Positions 12,234 to 22,657 of a stretch of 64,000 nucleotides of DNA are shown one piece after another. The first letter of the stretch is position 1. Each line of letters begins with the position of its first letter. The stretch comes from a virus. The notes under the pieces are model-generated. The model had not been told where the DNA came from. It was given only the letters and a program-made list of their open reading frames with translations, and searched no databases. Location of the stretch: positions 1-64,000 of the IMG/VR virus record IMGVR_UViG_3300037324_000043; one strand, given 5' to 3'. The translations under genes were made by a program, and so were the position numbers.

Positions 12234-13421
12234 ATGAATCAAGGTAGTTTATTTTCTGGTATTGGAGGATTTGATTTAGCATCTGAATGGATGGGATGGA
12301 ACAACTCTTTTCATTGCGAATGGAACGAATTTGGACAACGCATATTAAAATATTACTGGCCTAAAGCTATATCTTATGAAGACATCACAAAAACAGATTT
12401 CACTATTTGGCGAGGAAAAATTGACGTCCTCACAGGAGGATTCCCTTGTCAACCATACAGCCATGCAGGGAAAAGACTTGGTAAAGACGATGATAGACAC
12501 CTCTGGCCAGAAATGCTTAGAGCAATTCGGGAGATTGCCCCAGAGTACGTTGTGGCGGAGAACGTTCTTGGAATCGTTAGTTGGAATGACGGACTGGTAT
12601 TCAACGAAGTGCAAGCTGACTTGGAAGCTGAAGGGTACGAAGTACAACCGTGTGTACTTCCAGCTGCAGGTGTCGGCGCTCCCCATAGAAGAGATAGAGT
12701 CTGGTTTATTGCCCACCGTTCAAACTCAGGGATTAAAAGTATGCGAGAATCGAAGAAGCAAGTCAATAAACTTGAAAATGCTACCGACTCCAACAGGAAT
12801 GATGAACGATTGTTATGCAGACAACAGCCCAAACAGCCATTTAAGGCACTCCCCTTCATTAGCAACACTAGCCGACAGATCACTCCTACCAACCCCAAAA
12901 ACTTTCGATGCCAAAAAACAAAGAACTCTAAACGAGAATGGAGAAAATATGAGTCATACAACAGGCGTGAAATACGGGGTTCATTTAACACAATTAGCAA
13001 GCGCAGGACTAATTCCAACACCAAGAGCCAATCAGGTAAACGGATGCAATCTGAACAGCGAAAAATTAGCCAACAGGAACAGGGGGAATTTAGAGGAAAC
13101 AATAGCAAATTGGAATCAAAAGGGAATGATACCAACACCCAATGCAAGCGACAACAGGAACAGGGGAAACCCACAAGATCCATGCGTAATGAAGAGAAAA
13201 GAGAATGGAAAGCAAGTTGGGCTTACCATGATGGTAGATGGCCAACTCAATCCCCGATTTGTAGCGGAAATGATGAGCTTTCCAGTAGACTGGACGGAAT
13301 TACCTTTCCTAAATGGAGAAACGAAAGCATAAAAGGATTTGGAAATGCAATAGTTCCTGAGGTTGCTTTGCAGATTTTTAAAGCAATCATGGAAACTAAA
13401 AATTCACTTAAAACTGAATAA
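12234..13421 (+). CDS. dcm: DNA (cytosine-5) methyltransferase, 395 aa
   Basis: Motif I is FSGIGGF (7-13), motif IV with the catalytic Cys is GGFPCQPYS (about 68-76), motif VI is AEN (108-110) and motif VIII is GAPHRRDRVWF (148-158). Motif X, GFGNAIVPEVALQIF, lies near the C-terminus. The enzyme should methylate cytosine C5 and may protect phage DNA from host restriction. No nuclease partner is adjacent. The region between motifs VIII and X, where target recognition normally lies, is unusually polar, low in hydrophobics and rich in Asn, Lys, Arg and Gln, and is covered by a second ORF in the +1 frame. Confidence 0.9.
   Translation: MNQGSLFSGIGGFDLASEWMGWNNSFHCEWNEFGQRILKYYWPKAISYEDITKTDFTIWRGKIDVLTGGFPCQPYSHAGKRLGKDDDRHLWPEMLRAIREIAPEYVVAENVLGIVSWNDGLVFNEVQADLEAEGYEVQPCVLPAAGVGAPHRRDRVWFIAHRSNSGIKSMRESKKQVNKLENATDSNRNDERLLCRQQPKQPFKALPFISNTSRQITPTNPKNFRCQKTKNSKREWRKYESYNRREIRGSFNTISKRRTNSNTKSQSGKRMQSEQRKISQQEQGEFRGNNSKLESKGNDTNTQCKRQQEQGKPTRSMRNEEKREWKASWAYHDGRWPTQSPICSGNDELSSRLDGITFPKWRNESIKGFGNAIVPEVALQIFKAIMETKNSLKTE
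12376..13332 (+). CDS. Overprinted ORF within the methyltransferase, +1 frame, 318 aa
   Basis: This frame stays open for 957 bases inside dcm and reads like a real protein. Near the N-terminus are LEQFGRLPQSTLWRRTFLES and GTKYNRVYFQLQVSALP. Then an [LM][LI]PTP motif recurs (MLPTPTG, LLPTPKT, LIPTPRA, MIPTPNA). The end reads LNPRFVAEMMSFPVDWTELP. PTP-type repeats and an LNPxFVExxMGFPxxWT segment are familiar from proteins associated with phage C5 methylases. It may be an accessory or specificity protein, or be joined to the methylase by frameshifting. The ATG at 12376 is one possible start. Confidence 0.6.
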   Translation: MKTSQKQISLFGEEKLTSSQEDSLVNHTAMQGKDLVKTMIDTSGQKCLEQFGRLPQSTLWRRTFLESLVGMTDWYSTKCKLTWKLKGTKYNRVYFQLQVSALPIEEIESGLLPTVQTQGLKVCENRRSKSINLKMLPTPTGMMNDCYADNSPNSHLRHSPSLATLADRSLLPTPKTFDAKKQRTLNENGENMSHTTGVKYGVHLTQLASAGLIPTPRANQVNGCNLNSEKLANRNRGNLEETIANWNQKGMIPTPNASDNRNRGNPQDPCVMKRKENGKQVGLTMMVDGQLNPRFVAEMMSFPVDWTELPFLNGETKA

Positions 13422-14761: not shown

Positions 14762-17700
14762 TTATTTATCTTTCTTCATCTTATCCATAAGCTCAGTATA
14801 TTCCTCAATAGTTTCATCGTCAAAAATATTCATTTTTAGCATTTGATCGAACACCTTATCATTTTTAGCTGATCCGTCAAAAACATTACCGTAATATTGA
14901 ACAATTTTTAAAGCACGGGCCTCACGATCATTCTCAAAGGCAAGTCCAATAACGTAGCGGTCAATATCTTTGTATTTAGCAATATTTTTTATTTTGCTCT
15001 CAACCCTCTCAAGCTCTTTTGGAGCATATCCTTTTAAAGCTTCTATAAATGCAGGAACAGAAATTTCGTCATTATAGAAGCTACTTGCTAACGCCTCTAC
15101 GTCAATTTCTCGATAGGCGTTTTTTATTTTTATATTTTTAAGATCACCTTGTATTGGTCTTAATCTATTTACTTGTCTGTTAAATCCACTTGTATGGCTT
15201 ATGAGTCGTTTATTAAAAGATTTTAGTAAATCGTTTCCTAAGTCAGATCCAATTTTACTAATGTCTTTATCATCAGTTGCAACGGCATCTGCTCCAGCAT
15301 ATAATACCCCAATAAAAGGATTTGTGCTTGGCGTAGTAATTAAGCTTTCAATAGATCCTTTTAACCTGGAAGGAGATAAATGAGTACTACGCCCTATCTG
15401 TTTGTAAAAACCATCTATGTTTTTATCTTTCGCACCTTCCATTTCTGGTATGTCTTGGTTTTGATCGAAAGTTAAAGGTTGATTTCTATAAAAATCATAT
15501 CCAGTAGTATAAGTCAATGCGGCTTTTGCGGTAGGTATTTTAGCAAGGTTAGCAGTTAAAGAAGTTATATCAATTGGTATAATATTGTTTTGAATTGCGG
15601 TCCATGCTTCAGCATAATTTACTTTAGAATCCTTACGTTCTTTACCAACAATTTGATTTATTAATTGCGTGTAAACATTATCAGCAATATTAAGAATAGG
15701 AGCTAATTGCTGATTTTTTGCAATTTTCCAGATACGGTATTCGCCATCTTCATTTTTTGTACCATCTACAATATTAAAATACTGAATACGTTGATACCTA
15801 CTTACCCCTTCCATAGCCTCAAGCCATATCTCAATAGGAGATTTATCTTTATCTTCTTCGTCTTTATTTTTAGCAATTAAAGCTAGAGATCCAACTACGG
15901 CTGATCCACTTAAAATAACTCCAGCTTGTAGAATTTTTGAAGTAATTTTTTGAGGATTTTTCTTAAAAGCATCAACAGCTACACGGCTACCTTGTGTAGC
16001 TGTATTTATATAAGGAACGAAAGCTTCTAAGTCTTTTGTTACAGCACCGCCCTGATTAAAGTCTAATAAACTACGGGCTTCTGCTACTGCTCGCATATAA
16101 ATTGCATCTTTTTCTTCTTGGCTTTTAACTTCTGAAATAGACTTTAATCCTTTTAAGTCTAACTGGTTTTTTATAGTTCTTTTGAATAATGCCATTCTAA
16201 ACATTATTTCACTGTAATTCGAAAGCTTCCTTAAAGTCACAGCTTTGAAAAGAGAGCCACCAATAGCCTTAACTCTTGGAGTGATAAGTCTATCTAAGGT
16301 CTTAGCAAGCACGGTATCTTTTTTTAATCGACCTTGAGTACTTAAAAAAGCCATATCTCCACCATAATAAATATAGTTATCAAGCATATTAGAACTGTCC
16401 ATATTATAATTTCCCTTAGACTTTCTGATTTCATTTATGGCTATGAAAGTATCTTTAGAAACTTGAAACATTGCTTTAAAAACATTTGAAGAGTATTGAT
16501 CACTAAATACAACATTAAAGATAAAGTCACGAGGTATGTTTACTAATGCAAACGCTGGGTTGTTTCCAGTTGCAATGCCCTTTAATAAAGCTGAACCACT
16601 TACATAACTAAAACCTTCTTTTGATCTTGAATTTAAAAAGCCAGATAAATTATCAAACCAACTATTATGTAATTCTTCTTCAATAAAAAACTCATTACGA
16701 ATACCATCTACATAGTAATATGCTTTTTTAAAATTAGAAGGTGTTTTTTTAAATTTTCGCTCGTAAATAAATTCAGGAACCATTCCATCAATTACAGTTT
16801 GCTCTGTGTTTTCCTTCTTCTTAATTATAGGATTGTCTTTAATTTTTCTATTAAGCTCTATAAAATACTCATAAAAACGCTCATCTTCTACAGTCCATTC
16901 TTTGCGGTTAGAAAGATTTTTCTTAAGAGCATCAAAACGTTTTTTAGCAGCAGGAAATTCTTTAGTCATAAATACCTTATTAACAGTATTCATAGCCATA
17001 GCTCTTTGTCTTGATACAATTGAAGTAGACAATAACCATTCTGAATTACGAACTAAGTTACCGGAACTCCCTTCATTTAGATTCTTAATTTGATTTTGAG
17101 ACAAACCACCAGTATCACTTTTTTCAGTTTGCGCGGCACCTAATGAAACATTGCCTTCAAAGTCTGTAATGTGCTGAAGAAATAAACGAGGTTGATAATC
17201 TAATCCACTTAAATCATCATATACTTTTTGGCTTATTAATCCATTATTACGCATTTCATCAAGCAAACTTTTATACGTATCAAAATAAATTTTAGCACGG
17301 TTTTCTAAATCCTTATATTTTTTAGTACCTATCTTCTGTTCTGCTGAATTAAGATATTTTTGAGCTATTATTCCATTCACAAATCCAGGATGCTTAACGG
17401 TAGGAAGTCCTTTAGCTGATCTATTTTTATCAATAGCAATAAATCGCTTAAGTTGTATAATTTTATCAAGCAATACGCGATCTGCATTACTCATGGGTCT
17501 AAATTCAACTTCAAAACCTCCTTTTACTTTGATTTTAATTCTGTCTGTGTAAATATCAGAATAAGCTTTATCAAAAATACGCCTAGCCTTCCCTGAAGCA
17601 CCATGGCTATTTACCATAGCGTCTTTGGTTTGCTGAGCGCCAGCCTCGTCAACTAATTTTTTTGAAAGAAACTGACGATCAGTTATTTTTTCTATGAGCT

Positions 17701-20700
17701 TTCTGACTATCTTTCTCCTTACTGCTTTACGAGGTTGTTTGTTTTCAAAAGCTGCATCAGCTTCGTCAAAGTTATTTTCCACAAAATCAAAAGCCTCTTC
17801 ATCTGTCATTGAAGCTTCTGCGACTGCTTTTTTAATAGTGTCCGTAGTGATTTCTCTCTGCTCTTTTTTAGTTAGAGATTTATACCAATCTGTAGATTTA
17901 ATGTAATTAAGACCTTCCTCTAGGGCTAAAGCTGCTTTTTTCCCTGCCTTATATGCTGCTTTGACTGCTTTTATAGCTCCAAGAGCCACTACGACGGGTA
18001 AATTAATACCAATTGTTCCGTCTCCAAAATCTTTTAATTGCTTTTCGGCATCTTCTAATCCTTTAAGGAAAGCGTCATCGCTATTACCTTCTTGAATAGT
18101 ATCATCTACGTCTTGGTCTTGCGCTCCTTCACGTTCTTGAATGCTTGTATTGCTGCTTTCTGATTCTCCGTCAATTGATCTTTGCCTATCGATTTCAAAT
18201 TGGGCTTTTTCTTCTGTGGTTCCGAATTGTTCTTCATAATATTGTACTTTTTGGGCATATGTAAGCTCTTCTAAGTAAGAGTCTTCTGCCATTTGTGATT
18301 CAACTAAAGATAAATCTTGTTCTGATAGAGAACTTAAAAAACTAGACAATTCCTCCTCGTCTTGGTTTGCATCAATTTGCTCTTGTAAAGATACAATTTG
18401 GCTTTGTATGTCAGAAATGCTTTGATTTTCAAGCAATATTTGAATAATAGCGTCACGAACTACTGTTTGATCAAGACCTAAATTTGAATTTTCTGTAATT
18501 CCTTCTGAAGCTTTTTCAACACTAGGAAGTTTAGATTTATTTTTAAACCCAGAAGCCCATCTTAATTCTTTTTTAGATGCTCCTGTTTCTTTAGAAGCGG
18601 AATCCAAATCAATATTACCTCCATTGGCAAAATATTCTAAAGCTGCTTCGTATTCATTTGTTGGCGTGTAACTGTCAAGAGCCTCAAATAACCTTTTCTT
18701 GTCAGCTTCTCTTATTTGATTCTCAGTCTTTTTTCCTAAAGCTTCGTTTTCAATTCTAGAATAGTTGGCATTTTTGGCTAATGTTTTTTCACCCGTTTTC
18801 TTACCAGTCTTTTCATAGAATTTAGAAATCAATCTTCCGTCTTTTGCACTCTTGATGCTTACAACATTATTATCTGAGTCAATTTCCACATCAAACTCAC
18901 CTTTTACGCCTTTAGGTGAAACTCTTTTCGTGGTTGTTGGCTTAGAATCTAAAACATTTACTTTTTTTACTTTAGCTTTTCCTTCACTTGGCTTAGGCTT
19001 AGCGGAGGGCTGTACTGAAGTATCTTTCTCTTTTGCTGCATCTTTACCATCTGTAGGTCGAACGTCTGCATCAGTAGCAGTATCTCCTTCCGTTTGTGCT
19101 TCATCCTTAAGTTTCTTAATTAACTTATCTCTTGAAATTACTTTTTTATTGGACACGGCAGCATCATCTAGTACAATTATTTGAGCATCGTCTAGGTTTT
19201 TGTTTGCTACAATTACATTATAACCAGCATCCCTTATTTTTTGTATAGCTTCAGATGGAAGATAACCTTGTGTTTGAATTTCCTCTCCTATTATTTTCTT
19301 TGCCTTTTCAGATTCTAACCAAATTGCATTTTCTAAACTTAAATTACCCTCAATATAGGTATCAAAGTCAGGCATTCTAGCTCCCATACCCCCATCCCAA
19401 GTAGCATGTAGTATATCCGCTCTTGATACAAAAACCCCTTCATCTGAGATATTATCCGAAGTACTAAAGAATGCATCCTTCCTATTTTTGTCTGTTATAA
19501 AACCATCTTTAATTATTAAGTCTGCCCTATTTTTAGTAGTACCGTGTTTTATCTTTATAGATTTCTCACTTTCTTTTACTTTGCTTAATTCATTAGCCTT
19601 TCTTTTAGCTAGTGAAATATCCTTATCTTCGAGGTCAACCTGTTCAAAATCCTTTTCAAGTAAATCTATCTCCCGACTGGTCTGACCTGTCTTAAGTGCC
19701 TCTTTAAATTCCTCAGGTGAAAAAAGTGGTTTAATATACCCTATAGAAGCATTATCTCGACTGGCTTCTACTTTTTTTGTACCTTCCTCTAATACATCTT
19801 CTTGGTTGGCATCTTCTTCTTCTTCGGCGTTGATTTCTTCATCATTGGCTTCTTGGCTACTTTCTTCATTTGATTCTTCATTGTTTTGTGGGTTTTGATT
19901 TGATTTATTATTTAAAGCTGTTATTTTATCTCTAGCATCTTGACTTATTTTATTTCTAGCCTCTCTATTTATAACTTTTAAACCTCTTTTTTTAACATCG
20001 TCTTTTACTTCTTTATTTATTCTTTTTTCTATTACTTCTATTTTATTAAGTATATCATCTCTTTCTATTCCACTCGCTGTTTCATTAAATTTTTCTGTTA
20101 ACCTTATAACTTCTTTATCTTTATCTAATTTATTTATTTGTTCTGTTTTTATACCATCTAAAGAAATAGTACTGTCTAATTCTTCTTGTTTTTCTTTATT
20201 AATTTTTTCAATCTCAGATTGAGTATTAGATAATTGAGCTTTGACTGGTTTTTTAGGGTCTGGATTATCCCCTTCTTGTCTTTCAAAAATAGATATAGCA
20301 CGTTCAGTAATCTCTTGATTGGTTATTTGGAAGTCCTTAACCCCGTCAGCTTCGTACTCAGCAATTATCTCGTTTTGAGCTTCATCTTTTAGCTTTAATG
20401 ATTCTTCCTCTGTTAGAAGGTCTAAAAAGCTCTCCTTTTTTTCATCGACAACTATTTGCTTGCCTTCTAATATTTCATTTCTGTCTTTTTCCAAAACATT
20501 AAATTCATCCAAAAGGTCTTTTAGTATTTCAGTTCTTTGTTCCTGAGATAAAGATTTGTCTTCATTAATTAATTTTGCCTGCACCTGAAGGAAAGCTTGA
20601 TTTTTTGTAATGCCATTAACTTTATTGTAGACTGCTTCGCTTAAATTTGAAGTGGAGCTTTGAGCTTTCTGAATTAATTTATCATTACTGGCATTGGCTT

Positions 20701-22657
20701 CTTTTATCTTACCTTCTAAAATGTTTCTTGTGGATTGATTTCCTGCGTTATTAAATGCCTTCTGAAGCTTAATGACTTTTAAATAGCCGTTCTTTATTTC
20801 TTCAATTTGACTCTTAGGCATAAAAGGCTTAATCAATTCTCCTGTTATTTTGCCACCACCAATAATCAAAGGACTGCTTGCAAGAGTGGAGAATGTAGTT
20901 TTATCCAGGTTGTCTGTCAGCAAAACATCTTTTTTATCTAAAGCAAATCTATCTAATAAGTTTTGAGAAAAAGTTGTGGCGTTTTCGGTAAGAACTTCTA
21001 CACCGTTGTCTTTAAAAAATTGCTTAGTAAATCCTAAAGCTCCTTTGTTCATTAATGCTCTATTTGCACTAGAACTAACGGATCGTCTTAGTATTCGAGA
21101 AGTAGGTAGTGCGCCCAAAACACTCTCAGCAGCACCGTAACCAAAGGGTATTGATATCTCCTGTAATAAAGAATAATTTGCAGGATTAATACCTGATTCT
21201 TCAGACTTCATTTCTGAAAACTTACTACCTCCTGTTGATATTCCAAGAGCTGTTATACCTGCGGTAGCTGAAAAGGGATTCATTATAGCTGCTAATATTG
21301 GAGCTTGTGTGACTGTCTCCTGAGCTATAAAATAACCAACGTCTTGAAGTCCTGTTATGTTATCGTATTCCATTCTAGGACGAAAGTTTTGTGCAACTTC
21401 CTGAGTCATTTTTTTAGTCTCCTCAGCAGACATAGCCATTTCATCAGACGCTATTTGATCGGATTCGTTACCTGTAATAGCTGCCTTTATGTTTAAGGCG
21501 TAAGCAAATGCTCCTTGAGATCCAGCAACTACCAAATCTCCTGTTGACATAGCTATCTGAGCTTTCATGTTGTCTACAAAGCCGTAATTACGTTTTATTA
21601 AATCTATAGCCTCGGTAGTTTCTATTTTTTTATCTTGGTTTTGTTCCAACTTTTCTTCAAACTTTTTATACTTATCATCAAGAGTAGTGACAATCTGATT
21701 TCTTAATTGAAAGTTTTGTGCATACGTTTCTTTAAAACCTTCAGGCAATTCCTTGCCCTCTTTATTCATTTGCCTAATAAAATCTTCATTGGAATTTACT
21801 CTACTAGCCACTCTTGTTAATTTCTCAAAATCAATTTCAAGATCAATAACAGCAGCTTTTTCTTCCATTTCAACTGTTTTATAGTTGAATACCTGGTTGA
21901 CATTTAGCTCTTCCCTGTCTTGTTCAGGAAGAGCTCCAATATAATCTATAGTTCTTCTCTCCCTAAGAGCATCTGTTTCATCTTTGATGGTGATTTGCTT
22001 TATTGCTGAACTTATATTTTCGGGAGTTTGCTCCTTGTTTTCTTTCTCTAAAAACTTAATAGCCTTCTCTTGCTTTCTTTCCTTGTAAGATGGGAATTTA
22101 ATATCCGGACCTAATCCAAGCGTGGCTACTGCTCCAATTTTACTTAAAACATTTACAGCTCCTTGTGTGAATTTTTCGAAAGTAGAACCGTCTAGTTTTT
22201 CTTGAGCATCCCTTTCAATTTGTTGTGCATCTTCAGGCCTTACAGACGTAGCTCTTTCATAGTTGTCTATGTTAGCAAAGATTGTATCTCTATCAGCTAA
22301 ATTATCTTGTAACTGACTTAATTCAGCCTCTTTAAAATCAAGGTTTGATACTCTTTCATCTTGTGTAGGTTTTGGATTTTGTGCGTTAGGTGCGGAAGTA
22401 GCCAATGAACCATCCTGAGTCGGAGGTATTGGGGTTTCTTGTTCCAAATCCGAAGCAGTTTGTGAAGAAATAGAATCGCCTTTTTTTTTTAATGATTTGA
22501 AAAATGAAGAGTACTCATTTTTATCAGTAAACGAGCCTTTAGGAATTATATCATAAAGTTCGTCAATTCCATTTTCATCTACATAAGATTTTAATTGGTC
22601 TTTGTCTTTAAATGAGCCTTGTGGTAAAACGCCTAATAAATCATCTAATTCGTCCAT
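14762..22657 (-). CDS. Giant polyvalent internal virion protein, 2631 aa, with ART-like and LPD38-like regions
   Basis: Residues 1-75 hold two diverged copies of a short motif (LPQGSFKDKDQL and IPKGSFTDKNEY). About residues 1030-1165 read HGTTKNRADLIIKDG and end near AQIIVLDDAAV, resembling the ADP-ribosyltransferase domains of phage polyvalent proteins. A long Gln/Glu/Lys-rich coiled-coil stretch surrounds it. About residues 1950-2350 contain NPAFALVNIPRDFIFNV and a hydrophobic segment (AGVILSGSAVVGSLALIA), resembling the LPD38 C-terminal domain. Such proteins are packed in podoviral capsids and ejected with the DNA to counter host defences. It is three bases from the 523-residue gene. The domain names are inferred from motifs. 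Confidence 0.8.
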   Translation of the reverse strand: MDELDDLLGVLPQGSFKDKDQLKSYVDENGIDELYDIIPKGSFTDKNEYSSFFKSLKKKGDSISSQTASDLEQETPIPPTQDGSLATSAPNAQNPKPTQDERVSNLDFKEAELSQLQDNLADRDTIFANIDNYERATSVRPEDAQQIERDAQEKLDGSTFEKFTQGAVNVLSKIGAVATLGLGPDIKFPSYKERKQEKAIKFLEKENKEQTPENISSAIKQITIKDETDALRERRTIDYIGALPEQDREELNVNQVFNYKTVEMEEKAAVIDLEIDFEKLTRVASRVNSNEDFIRQMNKEGKELPEGFKETYAQNFQLRNQIVTTLDDKYKKFEEKLEQNQDKKIETTEAIDLIKRNYGFVDNMKAQIAMSTGDLVVAGSQGAFAYALNIKAAITGNESDQIASDEMAMSAEETKKMTQEVAQNFRPRMEYDNITGLQDVGYFIAQETVTQAPILAAIMNPFSATAGITALGISTGGSKFSEMKSEESGINPANYSLLQEISIPFGYGAAESVLGALPTSRILRRSVSSSANRALMNKGALGFTKQFFKDNGVEVLTENATTFSQNLLDRFALDKKDVLLTDNLDKTTFSTLASSPLIIGGGKITGELIKPFMPKSQIEEIKNGYLKVIKLQKAFNNAGNQSTRNILEGKIKEANASNDKLIQKAQSSTSNLSEAVYNKVNGITKNQAFLQVQAKLINEDKSLSQEQRTEILKDLLDEFNVLEKDRNEILEGKQIVVDEKKESFLDLLTEEESLKLKDEAQNEIIAEYEADGVKDFQITNQEITERAISIFERQEGDNPDPKKPVKAQLSNTQSEIEKINKEKQEELDSTISLDGIKTEQINKLDKDKEVIRLTEKFNETASGIERDDILNKIEVIEKRINKEVKDDVKKRGLKVINREARNKISQDARDKITALNNKSNQNPQNNEESNEESSQEANDEEINAEEEEDANQEDVLEEGTKKVEASRDNASIGYIKPLFSPEEFKEALKTGQTSREIDLLEKDFEQVDLEDKDISLAKRKANELSKVKESEKSIKIKHGTTKNRADLIIKDGFITDKNRKDAFFSTSDNISDEGVFVSRADILHATWDGGMGARMPDFDTYIEGNLSLENAIWLESEKAKKIIGEEIQTQGYLPSEAIQKIRDAGYNVIVANKNLDDAQIIVLDDAAVSNKKVISRDKLIKKLKDEAQTEGDTATDADVRPTDGKDAAKEKDTSVQPSAKPKPSEGKAKVKKVNVLDSKPTTTKRVSPKGVKGEFDVEIDSDNNVVSIKSAKDGRLISKFYEKTGKKTGEKTLAKNANYSRIENEALGKKTENQIREADKKRLFEALDSYTPTNEYEAALEYFANGGNIDLDSASKETGASKKELRWASGFKNKSKLPSVEKASEGITENSNLGLDQTVVRDAIIQILLENQSISDIQSQIVSLQEQIDANQDEEELSSFLSSLSEQDLSLVESQMAEDSYLEELTYAQKVQYYEEQFGTTEEKAQFEIDRQRSIDGESESSNTSIQEREGAQDQDVDDTIQEGNSDDAFLKGLEDAEKQLKDFGDGTIGINLPVVVALGAIKAVKAAYKAGKKAALALEEGLNYIKSTDWYKSLTKKEQREITTDTIKKAVAEASMTDEEAFDFVENNFDEADAAFENKQPRKAVRRKIVRKLIEKITDRQFLSKKLVDEAGAQQTKDAMVNSHGASGKARRIFDKAYSDIYTDRIKIKVKGGFEVEFRPMSNADRVLLDKIIQLKRFIAIDKNRSAKGLPTVKHPGFVNGIIAQKYLNSAEQKIGTKKYKDLENRAKIYFDTYKSLLDEMRNNGLISQKVYDDLSGLDYQPRLFLQHITDFEGNVSLGAAQTEKSDTGGLSQNQIKNLNEGSSGNLVRNSEWLLSTSIVSRQRAMAMNTVNKVFMTKEFPAAKKRFDALKKNLSNRKEWTVEDERFYEYFIELNRKIKDNPIIKKKENTEQTVIDGMVPEFIYERKFKKTPSNFKKAYYYVDGIRNEFFIEEELHNSWFDNLSGFLNSRSKEGFSYVSGSALLKGIATGNNPAFALVNIPRDFIFNVVFSDQYSSNVFKAMFQVSKDTFIAINEIRKSKGNYNMDSSNMLDNYIYYGGDMAFLSTQGRLKKDTVLAKTLDRLITPRVKAIGGSLFKAVTLRKLSNYSEIMFRMALFKRTIKNQLDLKGLKSISEVKSQEEKDAIYMRAVAEARSLLDFNQGGAVTKDLEAFVPYINTATQGSRVAVDAFKKNPQKITSKILQAGVILSGSAVVGSLALIAKNKDEEDKDKSPIEIWLEAMEGVSRYQRIQYFNIVDGTKNEDGEYRIWKIAKNQQLAPILNIADNVYTQLINQIVGKERKDSKVNYAEAWTAIQNNIIPIDITSLTANLAKIPTAKAALTYTTGYDFYRNQPLTFDQNQDIPEMEGAKDKNIDGFYKQIGRSTHLSPSRLKGSIESLITTPSTNPFIGVLYAGADAVATDDKDISKIGSDLGNDLLKSFNKRLISHTSGFNRQVNRLRPIQGDLKNIKIKNAYREIDVEALASSFYNDEISVPAFIEALKGYAPKELERVESKIKNIAKYKDIDRYVIGLAFENDREARALKIVQYYGNVFDGSAKNDKVFDQMLKMNIFDDETIEEYTELMDKMKKDK

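Follow-up and report, generated by a model that had tools for sequence, protein, structure and literature searches.

Does the cytosine methyltransferase gene of this phage carry a second protein gene in its +1 frame and, if so, what does that protein do? The window, meaning the whole stretch analyzed here, comprises 64,000 nucleotides of the 66,659-base virus record IMGVR_UViG_3300037324_000043. On its plus strand, a C5 cytosine methyltransferase frame of 395 amino acids, hereafter alpha, occupies positions 12234..13421 (Pfam PF00145, E 4.5e-49; phrog_363, E 3.7e-71). The initial annotation had described a 957-base +1 open reading frame inside this methylase, and the description is exact: an ATG at 12376..12378, 68 nt 5′ of the PCQ codons, and a stop ending at 13332 delimit a plus-strand product of 318 amino acids, hereafter beta (12376..13332). 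Window beta matches phrog_1008 (E = 2.6e-28), as do 142 of 142 aligned beta sequences. A Pfam match of beta to Se_S_carrier (E 0.0078, under the curated cut-off) was disregarded, and an Rfam search of the methylase locus gave no match. The genes neighboring the window methylase resemble phage replication genes, and Bacteroides phages BS-TP4 and BKO1-TP3 also have a replication-initiation/DUF4373 gene close 5′ of their methylase. No restriction endonuclease gene was evident by eye among the ORFs flanking the methylase. Farther along, the minus strand of the window at 14762-22657 holds a 2631-aa ORF whose middle is acidic and of low complexity; it may encode a multi-domain “large polyvalent” phage protein.

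The answer proposed here is that a single stretch of DNA very probably codes for the two subunits of a bipartite C5 cytosine methyltransferase, with alpha carrying out catalysis and beta contributing target recognition and motif IX. Alpha has the hallmarks of a C5 cytosine DNA methyltransferase, namely motif I (SLFSGIGGFDLA, 12246..12281, with invariant or near-invariant columns in A1/A6), motif IV with the catalytic cysteine (PCQ, 12444..12452, invariant in 125 sequences), motif VI (ENV, 12558..12566), motif VIII (HRRDR, 12684..12698, with R153 and R155 invariant), and motif X (FGNAIVPE, 13338..13361, with G370, N371 and P375 invariant and pLDDT >86), and its predicted fold is like that of M.HhaI. 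Motifs IV, VI and VIII lie within the overlap, and both frames are open across the codons of motif IV, as had been claimed; motif X lies directly 3′ of the beta stop. An AlphaFold model of alpha, built on the 125-sequence alignment, is confident for a catalytic domain (residues 1-190) and for the motif X helices (residues 360-395), and Foldseek with this model returned the M.HhaI and M.HaeIII fold. Residues 192-344 (12807..13265) are low-complexity and predicted to be disordered (pLDDT <50), so that between motifs VIII and X the alpha frame lacks a target-recognition domain (TRD) and motif IX. Thus, the would-be recognition domain of alpha is predicted to be unstructured where coding passes to beta, and this segment evolves in the beta frame. 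Both its disorder and its substitution pattern, described below, agree with the earlier view of the methylase frame downstream of motif VIII as a low-complexity by-product, here largely one of coding for beta.

Beta holds what alpha lacks. Its C-terminal end, LNPRFVAEMMSFPVDW, aligns with motif IX of single-chain methyltransferases (hhalign 93.5%), and the motif itself, LNPRFVAEMMSFPVDWTE, spans 13246..13299; the C-terminal LNPRFVAEMMSFPVDWTELP noted initially is present. In two of the same genomes, the ordinary Dcm genes, which are unrelated to the overlap family, encode motif IX within the methylase frame and lack beta, as expected. Upstream of motif IX, beta proteins mostly contain one to six PTP-like repeats, the PTPs lying a median of 39 residues apart. 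Longer beta proteins have more repeats (r 0.60), and there are 2.3 PTP per beta protein vs 0.08 in shuffled sequence. In the window, the repeats reported at the outset are found at beta residues 111 (LLPTV), 135, 170, 212 and 251 (PTP), and the five LPTV/LPTP/IPTP units, proposed as target-recognition modules, extend over 12706..13140. Such an array would fit candidate recognition modules of the size seen in multispecific phage methyltransferases. Nearer the N-terminus, residues 80-100 (LTWK...YNRVYFQL, 12613..12675, 5′ of and adjoining the alpha motif VIII codons) form a conserved, predicted hairpin in which W83 is invariant. This is the best-predicted stretch of the beta model, with a pLDDT of ~85. 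When modeled alone, beta as a whole reaches a pLDDT of only 59 and a pTM of 0.28, with the hairpin at ~80-100 and some short helices faring better; so poor a model would not be surprising for a chain whose folding takes place on its partner. A structure search of the PDB with the beta model found nothing, which is meaningless given the model’s low confidence, and a profile search of the PDB with beta returned chance matches only.

Together, these features suggest the following division of labor. Frame 0 would supply motifs I-VIII, which make up the SAM-binding and catalytic domain, together with motif X; between them, an unstructured linker takes the usual place of the recognition domain. Beta, translated from its own ATG inside alpha, would consist of an N-terminal helix-hairpin part, PTP modules of ~39 residues and motif IX, and would provide in trans the TRD and motif IX missing from alpha. 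Since beta would provide alpha’s missing parts in trans, the active enzyme is proposed to be an alpha-beta heterodimer, and we infer that recognition would lie in the PTP modules and that the dependence would be obligate. The target is most likely the phage’s own DNA, which the methylation would protect against host restriction.

The alternative that survives best, albeit as an unlikely one, is that beta is a real protein with some other job, such as a regulator, an anti-restriction protein or another accessory factor, and not a methyltransferase subunit. It is favored by the lack of a confidently predicted fold or a solved homolog for beta alone, but it would leave unexplained why beta carries the motif IX absent from alpha, why the frame carrying each segment complements alpha’s missing parts, and why beta was never found apart from alpha in the loci examined. 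Moreover, the parts move between frames. In gp66 of Mycobacterium phage DillTech15 (L010), the PTP repeats and motif IX share a single frame with alpha, so that the beta segment is fused to the methyltransferase, and in L065, L086 and L222 it is the beta frame that carries motif X; these are the rearrangements expected of parts of one enzyme. DillTech15 also retains a short remnant +1 ORF over the N-terminal region of beta. Against the two-subunit reading stand the poor model of beta, the prediction that places the TRD of M.EcoHK31I in its large subunit, the only moderate constraint by beta over motifs IV-VIII, and loci L015-L018, whose alpha linker contains a stop and whose motif X may be separate or absent. 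These loci represent a close relative of the window, with 81% identity in the best segment of beta, and the stop is a TAG in the disordered alpha linker that parts motifs I-VIII from motif X; beta stays open. One further locus, L076, encodes the N-terminus of alpha in the beta frame but everything after it in frame 0, through either a frameshift in alpha or an assembly error.

How beta is reached bears on a second alternative, less probable again, in which programmed +1 frameshifting from alpha generates a fusion of motifs I-VIII with the TRD and motif IX. The motif order of such a product would be continuous, and in L065 alpha ends right after motif VIII and the beta frame continues through motif X, so that one shift would yield a full enzyme. 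In most loci, however, the fusion would be without motif X, because motif X is back in frame 0. In addition, the first ATG of beta falls at a few recurrent positions relative to PCQ, of which the window position, within the Tyr-Glu codons of alpha “YEDIT”, is the commonest (51 of 223 loci). In 27 loci, mainly from taxa that use Shine-Dalgarno (SD) sites, the SD free energy at the beta ATG equals that at alpha starts (median -8.0 kcal/mol), and SD pairing at the beta start lies at the 6th background percentile of its gene in the median (KS p 1e-7). Bacteroidota loci, including the window, have SD sites at neither the alpha nor the beta start, as expected for Bacteroidota. Both the recurrent ATG positions and the SD sites at beta starts favor independent internal initiation over a shift, and beta also constrains the overlap over motifs IV-VIII. 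The initial annotation had left open whether the +1 frame encodes an accessory protein or a frameshift product; its conserved start, SD sites and motif IX speak for the former, and the motif X missing from a fusion in most loci speaks against the latter.

That the +1 frame is itself coding follows from comparisons with synonymous shuffles. In the window, it is open for 327 codons, whereas 300 synonymous-codon shuffles of alpha left it open for 127 on average and never for more than 276. Alpha and beta profiles, built from annotated phages only, were then used to score the window and 70 other loci; the beta profile that scored the window was built only from other phages. Window beta scores 190 bits vs 51 after alpha-synonymous shuffling (z = 11.6), and window alpha scores 193 bits vs 32 after beta-synonymous shuffling. 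Across the 71 loci, the median for beta falls from 169 to 55 bits under alpha-synonymous shuffling, and that for alpha from 202 to 48 bits under beta-synonymous shuffling, with the real sequence above all shuffles in both directions in 71 of 71 loci. These two-way losses mean that neither frame as a whole is a by-product of the other.

Substitution patterns reveal which frame is constrained where. The analysis used 16 independent close pairs, each locus being used once; these replaced a pooled count of 828 pairs, because distant pairs misalign in the variable region. Upstream of the overlap, substitution fractions at alpha codon positions 1/2/3 are.094/.048/.219, a normal alpha-frame pattern. 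Over motifs IV-VIII they are.068/.028/.142, and the drop at position 3 is significant (Fisher p = 1.6e-5): alpha is still constrained here, its third position is slowed by beta, and the constraint imposed by beta is moderate only. Downstream of motif VIII the pattern becomes that of the beta frame (.251/.138/.109), with alpha position 1, which is beta position 3, the fastest (position 1 vs 3, Fisher p = 2.7e-16). The last 30 beta codons show a mixed pattern, and past the beta stop the normal alpha-frame pattern returns (.074/.038/.222). Comparisons of the window with L183, L184 and L103 gave the same frame-by-region pattern; those with L019 and L015 are uninformative in the variable region, where gaps misalign. 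Thus, the frame-by-frame check suggested initially finds alpha codons constrained over motifs IV-VIII and beta codons in the variable region, and the earlier impression that both frames matter holds in the sense that selection acts on each. The amino acids and codons that a conserved methylase uses could by themselves account for the ~55 bits of beta score that survive alpha-synonymous shuffling, but most of the score and the open frame are lost on shuffling and substitutions downstream of motif VIII track beta codons, not alpha codons, so the view of the open +1 frame as a by-product, the most improbable of the alternatives, is ruled out.

The overlap extends well beyond the window. Searches by tblastn with beta found matches in annotated phages of Bacteroides, Lactobacillus, Paenibacillus, Rhodococcus, Mycobacterium, Synechococcus and Sulfitobacter, and in the annotated phages read the match lay at +1 of the methylase, except in Mycobacterium phage DillTech15. 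When 80 loci from viral contigs were fetched with the methylase frame, beta was at +1 in 79, and the remaining locus was a fragment cut by the contig end with beta visible at +1 too. Fetching with the +1 frame recovered an overlapping methylase in 80 of 80 loci from bacterial genomes, and viral contigs fetched with beta agree in having it at +1 of alpha; these beta-fetched sets were selected for having beta, whereas the alpha-fetched set and the window were not. Homologs with an interrupted or unconserved +1 frame, which would have argued against a second gene, were not encountered among the overlapping family. The overlap also occurs in E. coli phage K1G, Xanthomonas phage PhiXhv-18, Pseudomonas phage PMG1, Mycobacterium phage Spikelee and a deep-sea phage. 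Annotators recorded both ORFs in K1G, PhiXhv-18 and Paenibacillus phage Lily, where beta is entered as “g62 internal gene”; PMG1 has beta alone, and other records mostly have only alpha. The two-in-one gene is common to phages and prophages of many bacterial phyla, usually with one half annotated. None of the papers searched described this overlap in phages. When seven shorter beta sequences were aligned, conservation was nowhere strong enough to support a scan of genomes.

It is conceivable, at odds slightly short of even, that dual coding is the standing architecture of an entire phage C5-methyltransferase family (PHROGs 363 and 1008), with both frames under selection in phages and prophages of at least Bacteroidota, Bacillota, Pseudomonadota, Actinomycetota, Cyanobacteriota and Nitrospirota, and with beta serving as an array of recognition modules that are interchangeable, for one to six targets per gene pair. 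If so, few overprinted gene pairs known from prokaryotes and their viruses would be more widespread. Gene callers routinely discard long same-strand overlaps in prokaryotes, and in the records read here the single annotated product is sometimes beta rather than alpha. If the two-subunit reading is right, many “orphan” phage methyltransferases would prove inactive or unspecific when the annotated ORF is cloned alone, and their recognition sequences would have to be read from the +1 frame. In the overlap family, hundreds of natural replicates of such a fully overlapping pair are also available for studying the evolution of two proteins from one sequence, and the hand-over of constraint between frames is visible along it.

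A separate peculiarity, absent from the window, concerns alpha motif IV in relatives, where it is interrupted as GGFP-stop-(L/P/S)-CQP by the codons CCN-(TAA/TAG/TGA)-(CTN/CCN/TCN)-TGY-CAR (L021/L297, L026/L279, L078/L280, L085/L281, L282-L284, L286-L302, L304-L319, and also L325, L336, L339, L343-L345, L368, L378, L387, L397, L408 and L411). An unbiased scan, which left six free bases between GGNTTCCCN and TGCCARCC, gave 45 matches in a methylase context. The first codon was a stop in all 45 (TAA 31, TAG 7, TGA 7), and the second was CTN, CCN or TCN in 45 of 45, codons with which a Pro-tRNA leaving CCN could re-pair by Watson-Crick or G-U pairing. The take-off codon was CCG, CCT or CCA in the 42 distinct cases, and L408 and L411 carry a double stop (CCG TAA TGA CCT). 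The halves of alpha around the stop are otherwise intact in most cases and under purifying selection; the stop also occurs where the +1 frame is not open (L299 and L345), and its distribution on a tree of the catalytic region requires at least seven changes of state. As judged from the codons, the pattern suggests natural ribosomal stop-hopping, in which nine bases would yield one amino acid; the main rival is readthrough adding two extra residues.

An HNH-like domain lies in frame just 5′ of motif IV in L295, L302, L345, L368, L378 and L397 (and L305), that is, in ~6 of 42 alphas with the stop vs 0 of 209 without it (p 1.6e-5). An intein-like insertion in L006, itself interrupted by stops, lies between the proline and the catalytic cysteine (GGFP/CFDGDT...VVHN/CQPFS), at the same point as the stops. 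The insert bypassed in T4 gene 60 is believed to guard it against a homing nuclease. That gene is the closest analog of the motif IV stops, its neighboring homing endonuclease recalling the HNH-like insert. The stop hop is known from synthetic constructs, with no natural in-frame occurrences known according to a review (PMC5009743).

Several known systems resemble parts of the arrangement proposed for the window pair. Multispecific C5 methyltransferases of phages such as SPR and phi3T bear several TRDs in single chains; beta similarly has several recognition-sized modules of ~40 aa ahead of motif IX, but these candidate modules lie in a separate, overlapping frame. The PHROGs database labels both phrog_363 (alpha) and phrog_1008 (beta) “DNA methyltransferase”, the label making no mention of the shared DNA. 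The ShiLan insertion in a phage methylase hides an HNH endonuclease (PMC11855218), so that there, too, another frame of the methylase encodes a second protein; that insertion is mobile, whereas beta spans core catalytic motifs and is present throughout its family. A closer parallel is M.AquI, in which part of the recognition region and motif IX reside on a second polypeptide (PMC3404938), as proposed for the window pair. The small subunit of M.AquI differs in having motif X as well, a layout approached by L065, L086 and L222, where motif X is in the beta frame but the genes overlap.

The closest parallel is M.EcoHK31I (target YGGCCR), together with M.EaeI, in the likeness of motif distribution: the window pair has motif IX only in the small subunit, and motifs I-VIII and X in the large one. 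Lee, Kam and Shaw are said to have found in 1995 that the small subunit gene of M.EcoHK31I sits inside the large one in another frame, as beta sits inside alpha. The beta subunit of EcoHK31I measures ~176 aa, whereas window beta has 318 aa and repeat modules. The window pair also differs in belonging to a phage, with no restriction gene noted alongside; neither M.EcoHK31I nor M.EaeI was recognizable when sought in a plasmid collection. Of the two polypeptides that form M.EcoHK31I, the large one carries motifs I-VIII and X and the small one motif IX, and the predicted TRD has been placed in the large subunit (PMC3404938). That placement, a literature prediction and not a defining feature, is not borne out in the window family, where selection and disorder point to the small subunit. 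The window pair most likely works like M.EcoHK31I, as an enzyme of the same kind, the likeness being one of motif layout.
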